A DNA stretch of 64,000 nt. Origin: Mesorhizobium sp. B1-1-8 (GTDB lineage: Bacteria; Pseudomonadota; Alphaproteobacteria; Rhizobiales; Rhizobiaceae). The notes under the pieces are model-generated. The model saw only the letters and a program-made list of their open reading frames with translations, searched no databases and had not been told where the DNA came from. This document shows positions 12,629-25,347 of the stretch, one piece after another. The translations under genes and the position numbers were made by a program. The stretch spans positions 1,589,501-1,653,500 of the forward strand of contig NZ_CP083956.1 in assembly GCF_006442795.2 (NCBI RefSeq). Reading direction: 5' to 3'. How positions within the stretch are numbered: position 1 is the stretch's first letter; each line of letters opens with the position of its first letter.

Positions 12629-13556
12629 GATTGCCGTCTCCCCACCCGCCACCGTGGATGCATCGCGGCACGAAGCCACGGGGCCGAGCGGGCCGAAGCC
12701 GCGGCACGTGCTGTCGCGCCGCAACATCTTTCTCTACGGCACGCTCATCGTGATGGCGCTCTATTATCTGCTGCCGCTCTACGTGATGATCGTTACGTCG
12801 CTGAAAGGCATGCCCGAGATCCGTCTCGGCAACATCTTCTCGCCGCCGCTGGAGATCACCTTCGAGCCCTGGGTCAAGGCGTGGTCGCAGGCCTGCACAG
12901 GCCTCAATTGCGACGGGCTCTCGCGCGGCTTCTGGAACTCCGTGCGCATCACCGTACCATCGGTGCTGCTATCGATCGCCATCGCCTCGGTGAACGGCTA
13001 TGCGCTCGCCAATTGGCGCTTCAAGGGCGCCGACACCTTCTTCATCATCCTGATCGTCGGCGCCTTCATCCCCTATCAGGTGATGATCTATCCGATCGTC
13101 ATCATCCTGCGCGAGATCGGCCTCTATGGCAGCCTCACCGGCCTGGTCATCGTGCATTCCATCTTTGGCATGCCGATCCTGACGCTTTTGTTCCGCAACT
13201 ATTTCACCTCGATGCCGGAAGAGTTGTTCCGCGCGGCGCGCGTCGACGGCGCAGGCTTCTGGGGCATCTATCTGCGCATCATGCTGCCGATGTCGCTGCC
13301 GATCTTCGTCGTCGCCATCATCCTGCAGGTGACCGGCATCTGGAACGACTTCCTGTTCGGCGTCGTCTACACGCGTCCCGATACCTATCCCATGACGGTG
13401 CAGCTCAACAACATCGTCAATTCGGTGCAGGGCGTGAAGGAATACAACGTCAACATGGCCGCCACCATCCTGACCGGCCTTGTTCCGCTCATCGTCTACT
13501 TCATTTCGGGCAAGCTTTTCGTGCGCGGCATCGCCGCCGGCGCGGTGAAAGGGTGA
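12621..13556 (+). CDS. Sugar ABC transporter permease (MalG type)
   Basis: 311 residues, GTG start with GGAGGC upstream. After a proline-rich cytoplasmic tail come six membrane helices; the EAA coupling loop reads PEELFRAARVDGAGFWGIYL, and the C-terminus ends in the family-typical KLFVRGIAAGAVKG. A periplasmic loop containing QACTGLNCDGLSRGFWNSV is as in GtsC-like glucose permeases. The stop codon overlaps the ATPase start (TGATG). Confidence 0.93.
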   Translation: MAEIAVSPPATVDASRHEATGPSGPKPRHVLSRRNIFLYGTLIVMALYYLLPLYVMIVTSLKGMPEIRLGNIFSPPLEITFEPWVKAWSQACTGLNCDGLSRGFWNSVRITVPSVLLSIAIASVNGYALANWRFKGADTFFIILIVGAFIPYQVMIYPIVIILREIGLYGSLTGLVIVHSIFGMPILTLLFRNYFTSMPEELFRAARVDGAGFWGIYLRIMLPMSLPIFVVAIILQVTGIWNDFLFGVVYTRPDTYPMTVQLNNIVNSVQGVKEYNVNMAATILTGLVPLIVYFISGKLFVRGIAAGAVKG

Positions 13557-14656
13557 TGATGGCAGCAGTCGCCAATCCCAGCGTCTCGATCCAGGACCTG
13601 TCGCTCAATTTCGGCGTGATGTCGGTGCTGAAGACGCTCAATCTGGACGTCGCCGAGGGCGAGTTCGTCGTGCTGCTCGGGCCGTCCGGCTGCGGCAAGT
13701 CGACCTTGCTCAACTGCATTGCCGGACTGCTCGATATTTCGGAAGGCCGCATCTTCATCAAGGGCAAGAACGTCACCTGGGAGGAGCCGAAGGACCGCGG
13801 CATCGGCATGGTGTTCCAGTCCTACGCGCTCTATCCGCAGATGACAGTGGAGAAGAACCTTTCTTTCGGCCTGCGCGTTGCCGGCGTGGCCAAGGACGAG
13901 ATCGCCAAACGCATCGCGCGCGCCGCCGAGATCCTGCAGATCGAGCCGCTGTTGCAGCGCAAGCCCTCGGCGCTTTCCGGCGGCCAGCGCCAGCGCGTGG
14001 CGATCGGCCGGGCGCTGGTGCGCGACGTCGACGTCTTCCTGTTCGACGAGCCGCTCTCCAATCTCGACGCCAAGCTGCGCGCGGAACTGCGCGTCGAGAT
14101 CAAGCTGCTGCACCGCAAGCTCGAAAACACCATGATCTACGTCACCCACGACCAGATCGAGGCGATGACGCTTGCCGACCGCATCGCGGTAATGAAGGGC
14201 GGCGTCATCCAGCAGCTCGATGCGCCGCAGGTGATCTACAACCGTCCGGTCAACCGTTTCGTCGCCGGCTTTCTCGGCTCGCCGGCAATGAATTTTCTCG
14301 ACGGCCAGCTGGAAAACGCCGATGGCGGCTGGCGCTTCGTCGCCGACGGTCTGAAAATTCCGCTCGACACCTATAATTTCGACCGGCAGCCGCAACCCGG
14401 ACCAGCCGTATTCGGCATCAGGCCCGAGCATGTGAGTCTGAACAGCGGCGCTGGCTGGCCGTTCTCGGCGGCCAGCAAAGTCGAAGTGGTCGAGCCGATG
14501 GGCTCCGACACACTGGTCTGGCTGAAGCTTGCCCAACAGAAATTCAGCGTCCGCGTCACCTCCGAGCGCACGCCCAGGAACGATGAGGCGGTGACCATCG
14601 GCTTCGATCCGATGCGCGCCTCGCTCTTCGACGCCCAGAGCGGCAACCGCCTTTGA
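13556..14656 (+). CDS. Sugar ABC transporter ATP-binding protein (UgpC/MalK type)
   Basis: 366 residues. Walker A GPSGCGKST at about residue 42, Q-loop VFQSYALYPQMTV, signature LSGGQRQRVAIGRAL, Walker B VFLFDEPLSNLDAKLR and switch VTHDQIEAM, followed by a C-terminal OB-fold regulatory domain with FGIRPEHV. Two consecutive ATGs (13556, 13559) are possible starts. Powers the two permeases; CUT1 ATPases sometimes serve several transporters. Confidence 0.94.
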   Translation: MMAAVANPSVSIQDLSLNFGVMSVLKTLNLDVAEGEFVVLLGPSGCGKSTLLNCIAGLLDISEGRIFIKGKNVTWEEPKDRGIGMVFQSYALYPQMTVEKNLSFGLRVAGVAKDEIAKRIARAAEILQIEPLLQRKPSALSGGQRQRVAIGRALVRDVDVFLFDEPLSNLDAKLRAELRVEIKLLHRKLENTMIYVTHDQIEAMTLADRIAVMKGGVIQQLDAPQVIYNRPVNRFVAGFLGSPAMNFLDGQLENADGGWRFVADGLKIPLDTYNFDRQPQPGPAVFGIRPEHVSLNSGAGWPFSAASKVEVVEPMGSDTLVWLKLAQQKFSVRVTSERTPRNDEAVTIGFDPMRASLFDAQSGNRL

Positions 14657-21542: not shown

Positions 21543-21693
21543 TCATCGGCAGTTTTTTCGCCGAAGTCCGGTGCAAGGCCCGTCCCCCGCCTATACCGGG
21601 CAACTGCGGCAGCCTATCCCCCCTCTCCGGGCTGCCGCATCATTTCGAGTAAAGACCGCCGTGGTTCCCCCTCCACCACGGCGGTTCTTTTTT
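21543..21693 (+). ncRNA. Candidate trans-acting small RNA (alpha-r7/Smr7C-like)
   Basis: About 150 nt in the polA upstream gap with three hairpins in series: TCGGC/GCCGA (21546-21564), TGCGGCAGCC/GGCTGCCGCA (21605-21639, 15-nt loop) and a terminator ACCGCCGTGG/CCACGGCGGT (21655-21685) followed by TCTTTTTT. The loops of the last two are CU-rich (CCCCCCTCTCC; CCCCCTCC), able to pair with Shine-Dalgarno sequences. From memory, the rhizobial alpha-r7 sRNA has this size, three-hairpin shape and a polA neighbour; the family assignment is therefore inference. Confidence 0.6.
21655..21693 (+). terminator. Rho-independent terminator of the sRNA candidate
   Basis: Perfect 10-bp GC-rich stem, 11-nt loop TTCCCCCTCCA, then TCTTTTTT. 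No plus-strand protein gene ends before it (polA starts divergently at 21366), so it must terminate an RNA made within this gap. Confidence 0.85.
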
Positions 21694-21792
21694 GCCTATT
21701 CGCAATGCCTTGCCATCCTTGGTCCAACGATCGCGGCTTTTCGTTTTTGGTCCAGCCCTTTAGGGTCTGTCCAAAACCCGAAAGGCCAAAAG

Positions 21793-23178
21793 ATGTCCAG
21801 AATTTCTCCCGTCCTCGACCGTCTCGACCAGAATCTCGACCAGAGCCTGGAGCGGCTTTTCGGCCTGCTCGGCATCAGGTCGATCTCCACCGATCCCGCC
21901 TACGCCGCCGACTGCCGCAAGGGTGCCGAATGGCTGGTCGGCGAGCTCAAGCTGATCGGCTTCGACGCAAGCATACGCGACACACCCGGCCATCCGATGG
22001 TGGTGGCGCATCATGACGGGCCGGCGGGCGCGCCGCACGTGCTGTTCTACGGCCATTACGACGTGCAGCCGGTCGATCCGATCGAGCTCTGGGAGAACGA
22101 TCCGTTCGCGCCGTCGATCAAGGAAATCGAACCAGGCCGCAAGGTGATCACCGGGCGCGGCTCGGCTGACGACAAGGGGCAGCTGATGACTTTCGTCGAA
22201 GCCTGCCGGGCCTGGAAGCAGGTGCATGGCAATCTGCCTTGCCAGATCACTATCCTGTTCGAGGGCGAGGAAGAATCCGGCTCGCCGTCGCTGAAGCCGT
22301 TCCTCGAAGCCAATGCCGACGAGCTGAAAGCCGATTTCGCGCTGGTCTGCGACACCGGCATGTGGAACCGCGAGACGCCGTCGATCTGCGTATCGCTGCG
22401 CGGCATGGTCGGCGAGGAAGTCACCGTCAAGGCCGCAAATCGCGACCTGCATTCCGGCCTCTATGGCGGCGCGGCCGCCAACCCGATCCGCATCCTGGCG
22501 AGGATCCTGGCAGACATCCACGACGAGGACGGCCATATCACCATCCCGGGTTTCTATGACGGCGTCGAGGAAACGCCCTCGCAAGTGCTGAAATCCTGGG
22601 AGACGCTCGGCGAAACCGCCGAAACCTTCCTCGGCCCGGTCGGCCTGTCCATTCCCGCGGGCGAAAAGGGCCGTTCGGTGCTCGAGCTGACCTGGGCCCG
22701 GCCAACGGCGGAATTCAACGGCATCATCGGCGGCTATACCGGCAAAGGCTTCAAGACTGTGATCGCCGCGGAAGCCTCGGCCAAGGTGTCCTTCCGCCTC
22801 GTCCATAAGCAGGACCCGAAGAAGATCCGCGCCGCCTTCCAGGCTTTCGTGCGCGAGCGCATTCCGGCCGACTGCTCGGTCGAATTCCATCCGCATGGCG
22901 GCTCGCCAGCGATCCAGCTTTCCTATGACTCGCCGTTCCTGACCAAGGCCAAGGACGCGCTCTCGGATGAATGGGAAAAGCAGGCCGTCACCACCGGCGG
23001 CGGCGGTTCTATTCCCGTGGTCGGCGACTTCCAGACCTATCTCGGCATGGAATCGCTGCTTGTCGGCTTCGGCCTCGACGACGACCGCATCCATTCGCCC
23101 AACGAGAAATACGAGCTGACCTCCTTCCACAAGGGACAGCGCTCCTGGGCACGCATTCTCGACGCGCTGACGCGCTGA
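21793..23178 (+). CDS. M20-family metallopeptidase (dipeptidase type)
   Basis: 461 residues, ATG start; the frame extends into the sRNA region upstream, which is not coding. Zinc-site motifs: VLFYGHYDVQPVDP (His, Asp), GRGSADDKGQLMTFVEACRA (Asp), FEGEEESGSPSL (catalytic and metal Glu), CDTGMWN and, near the C-terminus, RIHSPNEKYELTSF (His). The lid domain between about 205 and 330 includes LHSGLYGGAAANP. Hydrolyses a dipeptide or related amide in the cytoplasm. It stands alone and the substrate is unknown. Confidence 0.92.
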   Translation: MSRISPVLDRLDQNLDQSLERLFGLLGIRSISTDPAYAADCRKGAEWLVGELKLIGFDASIRDTPGHPMVVAHHDGPAGAPHVLFYGHYDVQPVDPIELWENDPFAPSIKEIEPGRKVITGRGSADDKGQLMTFVEACRAWKQVHGNLPCQITILFEGEEESGSPSLKPFLEANADELKADFALVCDTGMWNRETPSICVSLRGMVGEEVTVKAANRDLHSGLYGGAAANPIRILARILADIHDEDGHITIPGFYDGVEETPSQVLKSWETLGETAETFLGPVGLSIPAGEKGRSVLELTWARPTAEFNGIIGGYTGKGFKTVIAAEASAKVSFRLVHKQDPKKIRAAFQAFVRERIPADCSVEFHPHGGSPAIQLSYDSPFLTKAKDALSDEWEKQAVTTGGGGSIPVVGDFQTYLGMESLLVGFGLDDDRIHSPNEKYELTSFHKGQRSWARILDALTR

Positions 23179-24363: not shown

Positions 24364-24446
24364 GCAAGGTCGACCAGCCGAAGACAGGCCGGGTGCAGGG
24401 GGCTCGACTGAATCTGCAAGACGACATCGCGCCGGGAGGATTTCGG

Positions 24447-24560
24447 CCGGAAATACAAGGGCTGCGCGGTCTGGCCGTCGCCTTTTGTGGTGATCTTCCA
24501 TATCCGGCCGGCAGCTCTTCCCGGCGGCTATGTCGGCGTCGACATCTGGCGCCGTATCTT
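24447..24560 (+). pseudogene. Frameshifted N-terminal fragment of an OafA/YrhL-type acyltransferase
   Basis: One frame reads FRPEIQGLRGLAVAF and the next frame continues VVIFHIRPAALPGGYVGVDI. Together these match the first 40 residues of membrane acyltransferase family 3 proteins, whose consensus begins YRPEIDGLRALAV and continues VxxFHxxxxxxxGGFVGVDVFF. The frames join at GCCTTTTGTGG, consistent with one extra T. Nothing of the remaining about 300 residues follows, so this is a fossil end of a gene. Confidence 0.75.
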
Positions 24561-24657
24561 GCGAAGGCCGCGGGTCTATGAGCCTGCTTATGCTTCACGC
24601 CGCTGAACCGGCCTGACTTGGCTGTTATGTGCCGGAGGTGGTGCGAAGGCTCGAGTG

Positions 24658-24759
24658 TCAGGGTGCCTCGGAAGGTCCCGAGACAACCACAATCTGTGCA
24701 GCGACGGACGCCAAGCACTCCCGTTTGTTCAGCACCGGCTTTTCGTATGTCTTCTTCAT
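24658..24759 (-). CDS. RiPP-precursor-like small peptide A (lasso-type leader)
   Basis: 33 residues, MKKTYEKPVLNKRECLASVA then AQIVVVSGPSEAP. AAGGGGG lies 5 bases before the ATG; a second ATG directly upstream is too close to it. The YEKPVL segment fits the YxxPxL recognition motif of lasso and related RiPP leaders. Very similar to peptide B (identical MKKTYEKP, then KRE, L, SV and a later SG). Contains one cysteine at residue 15. TTGACA lies 51 bases upstream. No cyclase, protease or transporter gene lies nearby, so maturation, if any, would act in trans. Confidence 0.7.
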   Translation of the reverse strand: MKKTYEKPVLNKRECLASVAAQIVVVSGPSEAP

Positions 24760-24809
24760 CATTTCCCCCTTCATCCCTCAAATGACACGATTGCCTTCGG
24801 CCGGCGCGT

Positions 24810-24815
24810 TGTCAA
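24810..24815 (-). promoter_or_regulatory. Conserved -35-like box of peptide gene A
   Basis: Minus strand CTTGACAACGCGC, matching CTTGACAACCGCGC at the same distance (51 versus 49 bases) from the ATG of peptide gene B. The -10 is weak (AATCGT after 17 bases). A second TTGACA lies further upstream in GGTTGACAATAAAAACAAGC. Confidence 0.45.
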
Positions 24816-25153
24816 GCAAGCTGACCGCAAGCATTTGATATTCAATCGCCCCGATTTTTCCTGTTTAACGCGCCTTTAAAGGTAAGCGCTTGTTTTTATT
24901 GTCAACCGTTACCAATCGAGTATGCGCTTCTCGCCTTGTGATTTCTATTGGGCGCGCCCCGAGGCTTTGGACCGGCGTGCGCTTATGCACGTAGCGCACC
25001 ATCACCACTCTGCCGGCCGTGCCGCCGGAAGTGCCGGAAAGATGGAACGTCGTCTTGTCTTAGTCGGCGCGGGTTCGCAGCGCTATGCGATGTATGGCGG
25101 AGAGGGTGATCATCCTCCAATATCCGCTGCTGGCCCCGCCGGCGACAGCCTCG

Positions 25154-25252
25154 TTATTTCGTAGGTTCTATGAAGCCCGAGGCTGCGACTGCAACGACAC
25201 TCGACAGCTTCTCGCGCTTGCTGAGAGTCGGCTTTTCGTAGGTCTTTTTCAT
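25154..25252 (-). CDS. RiPP-precursor-like small peptide B (lasso-type leader)
   Basis: 32 residues, MKKTYEKPTLSKREKLSSVV then AVAASGFIEPTK. AAGGGGGC lies 5 bases before the ATG, as in peptide gene A. The leader carries YEKPTL, matching YxxPxL. The C-terminal part is small and hydrophobic with one acidic residue; no classic lasso core (Gly1 with Asp/Glu at 7-9) is obvious, although GFIEPTK begins with Gly. I recall similar short proteins being annotated in Mesorhizobium as putative RiPP precursors; that is memory, not a search. Confidence 0.72.
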   Translation of the reverse strand: MKKTYEKPTLSKREKLSSVVAVAASGFIEPTK

Positions 25253-25300
25253 TATTGCCCCCTTATACACACTTGCACAGGTGCCTTTCCTCCGCGCGGT

Positions 25301-25306
25301 TGTCAA
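25301..25306 (-). promoter_or_regulatory. Conserved -35-like box of peptide gene B
   Basis: Minus strand CTTGACAACCGCGC, the same sequence context as for peptide gene A. A TGTGTATAAGG stretch lies about 30 bases further on, just before the ribosome-binding site. Confidence 0.45.
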
Positions 25307-25347
25307 GGGAGTATGGGGCGGCCGGGCGCGGGCCACTCTTCCGCCGT

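Follow-up and report, generated by a model that had tools for sequence, protein, structure and literature searches.

Here we describe a family of short leader peptides, dispersed over the genomes of Mesorhizobium and its relatives, for which a genetic link to a lasso-like enzyme set without a cyclase is well supported. Genome comparison revealed that the members have a conserved leader, that Ser or Thr is universal in the cores of the set examined, and that the peptides co-occur with, and in a minority of loci lie adjacent to, the genes of a PqqD-type B1 protein, a B2 leader peptidase, an HprK/PEPCK-type kinase and a nucleotidyltransferase, with no canonical lasso cyclase at those loci. The dispersed peptides and the cyclase-free enzyme set probably represent a new RiPP variant and possibly a new class.

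The family was noticed from a pair of genes in the window, by which we mean the whole stretch of 64,000 nucleotides that was analysed. The initial annotation had described two minus-strand peptide genes with a common leader, an AAGGGGG ribosome-binding site 5 bases before the ATG and a shared upstream motif, and both genes are indeed present, as listed below in window positions.

25154..25252, minus strand: precursor gene 1, 32 aa, MKKTYEKPTLSKREKLSSVVAVAASGFIEPTK; leader MKKTYEKPTLSKREKLSSVVA, core VAASGFIEPTK, Ser at core +4
25258..25264, minus strand: ribosome-binding site AAGGGGG of gene 1
25294..25307, minus strand: CTTGACAACCGCGC, putative -35-type promoter element of gene 1
24913..25343: segment of 431 bases bearing gene 1, for which blastn gave no match at the syntenic site of genome G011
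24658..24759, minus strand: precursor gene 2, 33 aa, MKKTYEKPVLNKRECLASVAAQIVVVSGPSEAP; leader MKKTYEKPVLNKRECLASVAA, core QIVVVSGPSEAP, Ser at core +6
24765..24771, minus strand: ribosome-binding site AAGGGGG of gene 2
24804..24816, minus strand: CTTGACAACGCGC, putative -35-type promoter element of gene 2
24365..24827: segment of 463 bases bearing gene 2, with no blastn counterpart at the syntenic site of G011

The two peptides are identical at 15 of their first 20 residues. Of leader codons 1-20, 8 are the same in both genes, 7 differ synonymously and 5 non-synonymously, a pattern that indicates conservation of the protein over the DNA. The ribosome-binding site was seen 5 bases before the ATG at both genes. 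The upstream motif CTTGACAAC(C)GCGC was also present, but not at the claimed distances of 51 and 49 bases: it begins 55 and 57 bases ahead of the start codon, and 41 and 44 bases separate its end from the ATG. Of 60 distinct family members, 33 have the hexamer CTTGAC in the 80 bases preceding the gene, and in 32 cases it is 55-69 bases from the start; the expectation from mononucleotide shuffles is 0.9 of 60.

The neighbours of the pair are genes for an M20 peptidase, a 3'-5' exonuclease, two small genes without a Pfam match, an SPFH-domain protein and a penicillin-binding protein, and no relative of B1, B2, the kinase, the nucleotidyltransferase or the cyclase was found in the window by tblastn (best E 0.04). 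The earlier statement that no cyclase, protease, RRE or transporter gene lies within about 25 kb is wrong in its literal sense for proteases and transporters, since a MalK-type ABC ATPase is encoded at 12881-14656 and the M20 peptidase at 21571-23178, although neither is of RiPP type. Conservation in related strains, on which the initial annotation had made its proposal depend, was found for the family as a whole but not for the window site: among 13 other genomes with the SPFH neighbour, none has a peptide within 1500 bases upstream of the SPFH gene. At the syntenic site of G011, the small genes on the flanks and 85 bases from the middle are present, but neither peptide segment has a match, which suggests two separate gains here or losses there. 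No synteny was detected between the window peptides and 10 family loci of other genomes. The exact pair in the window is lineage-specific.

A genome-wide search for similar short open reading frames, which had been suggested together with the original description, indicated that the pair belongs to a dispersed family. With one peptide as the query, eight copies were found at E<0.01 in the 6.2 Mb genome that contains the window (a ninth match, with E 1, was excluded from the count): the window pair, a second adjacent pair at 4418 kb of contig C1, and single copies at 1299, 3342, 4347 and 4372 kb. The 1299 kb copy (G000:C1:1299160-1299243; L003, L030) looks decayed, the expected ATG being out of frame with the leader. 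Peptides were detected in 44 of 61 genomes of the genus at E<=0.05, with 2 to 13 copies each and some in tandem arrays, by a search with a single peptide as the query, so that more distant members may have escaped detection in the 17 negative genomes. At the family level, 18 of 297 genomes carry peptides at E<=1e-4, a cut-off chosen after the table was seen; nine genomes with matches at E 1e-4 to 1e-2 and no B2 over its cut-off (G075, G111, G113, G145, G207, G212, G228, G287 and G328) were left out as chance. None of the sampled peptides passes a cut-off in NCBIfam or Pfam, the best scores being 16.8 against 19 for lasso_leader_L3, 20.5 against 33 for lasso_cyano and 16.9 against 22.6 for DUF5972.

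A leader score applied to all loci collected yielded 116 distinct peptides at thresholds of 20-30, with a maximum of 10.4 on four shuffled loci. Being derived from 11 Mesorhizobium leaders that are themselves among the 116, the score is biased towards leaders like these and overlooks members whose N-terminus differs. The lasso-type leader motif YxxPxL that had been recognised in the window pair proved to be general, with Y5 and P8 together in 113 of the 116 peptides and mostly Leu at position 10 (entropy 0.92 bits). Ala21 is likewise found in 113 of 116, preceded at position 20 (-2) by Thr in 61 and by Val, Ile, Ala or Leu in 54. When Tyr5 is taken as -17, as in the phosphorylated lasso precursor of PMC10368454, Ala21 becomes -1 and the core starts at residue 22. 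Mean entropy is 1.19 bits over the leader columns and 2.7 to 3.7 bits in core columns +1 to +8, for peptides that were collected by a score favouring conserved leaders. The contrast agrees with the earlier view of a conserved leader and a diversified core, except that the core is not free to vary: Ser or Thr is present at core +2..+7 in all 116 distinct peptides (Ser alone in 106), whereas permutation of the core residues gave a mean of 87.4 and a maximum of 101 over 1000 runs. At core +3..+5 the count is 105 of 116, against a permutation mean of 58.8 and a maximum of 77; the peptide sequences are related, so that both sets of permutation values overstate independence. The cores are 5-21 residues long, mostly 7-12. 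A looser scan of selected loci gave 59 matches, of which one (L146) is probably due to chance; Ser or Thr lies at +2..+7 in 58 of the 59, and the exception, L140, has Ser at +9. An Asp or Glu at +7..+9, needed for a lasso ring of 7-9 residues, occurs in only 12 of the 116 peptides, gene 1 included; the Glu of the window pair is at core +8 in gene 1 and core +10 in gene 2.

The search of the same genome for lasso B1, B2 and cyclase genes that the initial annotation had recommended, carried out with the B2 (Transglut_core3) and cyclase (Asn_synthase) families, uncovered two B2 genes. The loci concerned, on contig C1 of this genome (G000), are as follows.

C1:228447-228734, minus strand: PqqD-type B1 (PqqD 39.5 bits, cut-off 23.4)
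C1:228013-228447, minus strand: B2 leader peptidase, second type (lasso_biosyn_B2 64.9, cut-off 33)
C1 about 227024-228037, minus strand: HprK/PEPCK-type kinase
C1:225992-227017, plus strand: nucleotidyltransferase, convergent
C1 254675 to about 260500: canonical lasso cluster with a 50-residue precursor (MEQNAEKYEYETPSLTVHGSIETITQGGAGTTALDASFPAHTPVGELTFS), B1, B2, cyclase, kinase and ABC transporter

The first four genes form a locus 1.39 Mb from the window peptides, with no family peptide in the 12 kb around it, and the closest cyclase match is that of the canonical cluster, at the 256 kb position on C1. The canonical cluster, about 26 kb away, matches it in its kinds of B1, B2, kinase and nucleotidyltransferase, the last being upstream on the opposite strand, but differs from the cyclase-free locus in having a cyclase, an ABC transporter and one precursor with TxG and an Asp at core 9. 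It is complete within L026:5011-12524 (C1 about 253.0-260.5 kb), and polysaccharide-export-type genes lie nearby.

The best solved relative of B1 by sequence is the lasso RRE TfuB1 (E 8e-5). In B2, Cys73 and His110 are kept in 13 of 13 aligned sequences and Asp116 in 12 of 13; B2 had no sequence match among solved structures, and its model gave no significant fold match in the PDB. HprK and PEPCK are related, and the model of the kinase (mean pLDDT 91.7) matches PEP carboxykinases, the best 50 listed having E values of 3e-9 to 1.5e-7. Against the NCBIfam HprK-related models the kinase is far under the cut-off (29.1 against 200 bits for TIGR04352, HprK-related kinase A, which we take to be the HPr-rel-A system). 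HPr-rel-A consists of an HprK-related kinase and a PqqD-type protein and is thus similar to the present locus in this pairing, but not in the score of the kinase. The kinase residues His137, Lys160, Asp177 and Asp178 are kept in 13 of 13 sequences and agree in their order with the His-Lys-Asp-Asp motif published for lasso-peptide kinases (PMC9266682). D130 and D132 of the nucleotidyltransferase are kept in at least 95% of 36 sequences. No transporter related to that of the canonical cluster is consistently present at the locus.

The distribution of the second-type B2 coincided with that of the peptides. Used as a query within the genus, it was found as one copy, 74-100% identical, in exactly the 44 peptide-bearing genomes and in none of the 17 peptide-negative ones at E<=1e-5; the B2 types had first been assigned by eye, the search gave the same 44, and a general search for the B2 family agreed with this distribution. 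Twelve of the 17 negative genomes are without any B2, and in the other five (G016, G020, G034, G045 and G059) all B2 loci are of the canonical or another type and include a cyclase relative. The canonical cluster alone does not predict the presence of the dispersed peptides. Conversely, G039 has the second-type B2 alone and does have peptides. In the family-level survey, all 18 peptide-bearing genomes have a B2 over the family cut-off, as do seven others, five of which have cyclase-bearing loci; G282 and G301 have second-type loci without detected peptides. Further exceptions are G271, with peptides and only B2 recognised at the locus, G098, without a recognised B1, and G324, without the nucleotidyltransferase. 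Fisher's test gave p values of 2e-15 for the genus, 6e-27 for the family and 8e-21 for the family minus the genus, which are optimistic owing to shared ancestry, although the association recurs in several genera. A further type of lasso-like locus, with a more distant cyclase and another gene order, was seen in the peptide-free genomes G016 and G020 (L121, L122).

All 22 second-type loci fetched from other Mesorhizobium genomes contain B1, B2, the kinase and the nucleotidyltransferase. Relatives of this locus in named organisms come almost entirely from Mesorhizobium, with identities of 74% or higher. Among 15 second-type loci from outside it, 12 have all four enzymes and none has a cyclase, the incomplete ones being L185 (no recognised B1), L194 (no nucleotidyltransferase) and L191 (only B2). 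In a named set of 80 loci, B1, B2 and the kinase are present at all 80 and the nucleotidyltransferase at 79, and no lasso cyclase was found within the flanks examined, up to 9 kb per side. Tandem peptide arrays lie directly beside the enzymes in other Rhizobiaceae, with nine copies at L188, five each at L190 and L192 and two at L195, and in Devosia, with 4-5 copies each at L281 and L283. A leader-score peptide lies within 23 of the 80 named loci. Of 23 Mesorhizobium loci, including the one described above, seven have a neighbouring peptide, a rate biased by the choice of some loci for an already known nearby peptide, and the looser scan revealed further peptides near the enzymes of G085, G190 and G321 (L132, L137 and L141). 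The strict co-occurrence and the arrays at enzyme loci support the original suggestion that the window genes are orphan precursors with a lasso-type leader that would be modified in trans.

Taken together, these results make the following account of the pathway, including the order of its steps, likely in our judgement. The leader of 21 residues (Y5xxP8xL10, with Ala21 preceded by Thr or a small hydrophobic residue) would be bound by the distant PqqD-type B1, which would present the peptide to the HprK/PEPCK-type kinase for phosphorylation of Ser or Thr at core positions 2-7; the neighbouring nucleotidyltransferase may then decorate the phosphate, and the B2 Cys protease would cut after Ala21 to release a linear peptide of roughly 5-21 residues, without a lasso ring. 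Phosphorylation and decoration are suggested by homology and by the Ser/Thr of the cores. Decoration is proposed because the nucleotidyltransferase homologue of pseudomycoidin puts a hexose on phosphoserine (PMC9266682). A lasso ring is unlikely for the dispersed peptides because there is no cyclase at the locus, the cores are short and suitably placed Asp or Glu residues are few.

The closest known systems are phosphorylated lasso peptides. In the one characterised in PMC10368454, YxxPxL spans -17 to -12 of the precursor, the kinase modifies Ser3 (in core numbering as we understand it), and B1 speeds phosphorylation and aids B2. The YxxPxL register of Bsf from Bradymonas is shared with the dispersed peptides (PMC10368454), and Bsf, paeninodin and pseudomycoidin resemble the present system in their discrete B1, B2 protease, His-Lys-Asp-Asp kinase and Ser as the kinase target, the nucleotidyltransferase being common to Bsf, pseudomycoidin and the cyclase-free locus (PMC10368454, PMC9266682). 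The present system differs from these in the lack of a cyclase at the locus, in its short cores with few suitably placed Asp or Glu residues, and in having many precursors, mostly distant from the enzymes. The logic of dispersed precursors has a parallel in the prochlorosins, lanthipeptides for which many dispersed precursors are served by one distant LanM-type enzyme; the chemistry is unrelated. The part of the literature that we searched contained no description of a cyclase-free system of this kind or of a Mesorhizobium RiPP like it.

Several other explanations need to be weighed against this account. The peptides could be true lasso precursors for which the canonical cluster at C1 about 254.7-260.5 kb provides the cyclase in trans; this cluster is complete, and the leaders share YxxPxL. 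However, the five genus genomes that have a B2 other than the second type have no peptides, G039 has peptides with the second-type B2 only, and the best cyclase match in 16 genomes with only second-type loci is at most 134 bits (with none at E<=1e-10 in three of them) compared with 553-1477 bits in four canonical controls; Asp or Glu is, moreover, suitably placed in few cores. Cyclisation in trans is thus highly improbable, and we rejected it on co-occurrence and core composition. A milder departure from our account is that the peptides are substrates of B1 and B2 and that the modification is something other than Ser/Thr phosphorylation, the kinase having its role elsewhere or the product being merely a cleaved linear peptide. 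The kinase step is predicted from homology and co-occurrence, and the kinase reaches only 29 of the 200 bits that the NCBIfam model demands, which leaves some room for this explanation; the Ser/Thr present in every one of the 116 cores and the kinase gene at 80 of 80 named and 37 of 38 other loci argue against it, and we regard it as unlikely.

It is also conceivable that the peptides are regulatory small proteins, or unprocessed peptides that merely resemble RiPP leaders: about half of the genes examined have a promoter-like element of their own, the members are scattered, and the window pair is lineage-specific. The near-perfect co-occurrence and repeated adjacency with predicted leader-binding and leader-cutting enzymes across genera argue against this explanation, and we give it very little weight. 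Least credible of all is that the genes are relics of an earlier family of lasso precursors and have decayed and lost their function, as the out-of-frame start in one of the eight copies might suggest, given that the reading frames are conserved, that leader entropy is highest at the third codon position (1.43, compared with 0.78 and 0.71 at positions 1 and 2), and that the promoter element recurs and Ser/Thr is universal in the cores examined.

We return to phosphorylation of linear peptides as the preferred account. We lean slightly towards a new RiPP class in rhizobia and relatives, in which a lasso-derived set of B1, B2, kinase and nucleotidyltransferase without a cyclase would serve a dispersed pool of precursors, up to about a dozen in number and turning over rapidly, and yield short linear peptides phosphorylated, and perhaps glycosyl- or nucleotidyl-phosphorylated, on Ser/Thr. 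If this is true, a lasso enzyme set would have dropped lasso formation, and its kinase would be the main modifier of many precursors in trans. Such a system would be missed by genome mining built on a precursor next to a cyclase. A survey of RRE domains collected almost 8,000 proteins by the discrete lasso RRE model, about 4,000 of which co-occur with a leader peptidase and a cyclase (PMC7470986), and in a more recent survey the lasso cyclase is among the enzymes by which neighbourhoods are sorted (PMC12710340). The present set provides more than 100 predicted phosphopeptides (116) in Mesorhizobium and relatives that are directly testable.

Some minor observations may be added. In G324 (L308:5830-7818), an asparagine-synthase-like gene whose product starts MCG is preceded by a family peptide that ends 18 bases before it; this is the only such pairing encountered and may represent a real partner or chance. 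A contig of a metagenome-assembled genome labelled Phycisphaera mikurensis (L279) carries the cyclase-free four-enzyme locus and a peptide, and is perhaps mis-binned. Family-like peptide matches with E values of 2e-3 to 0.4 are also present on the Mesorhizobium plasmids NZ_CP080532, NZ_CP080533, NZ_CP045499 and NC_014918, where they correspond to an annotated hypothetical protein in one plasmid and to no listed gene in three.
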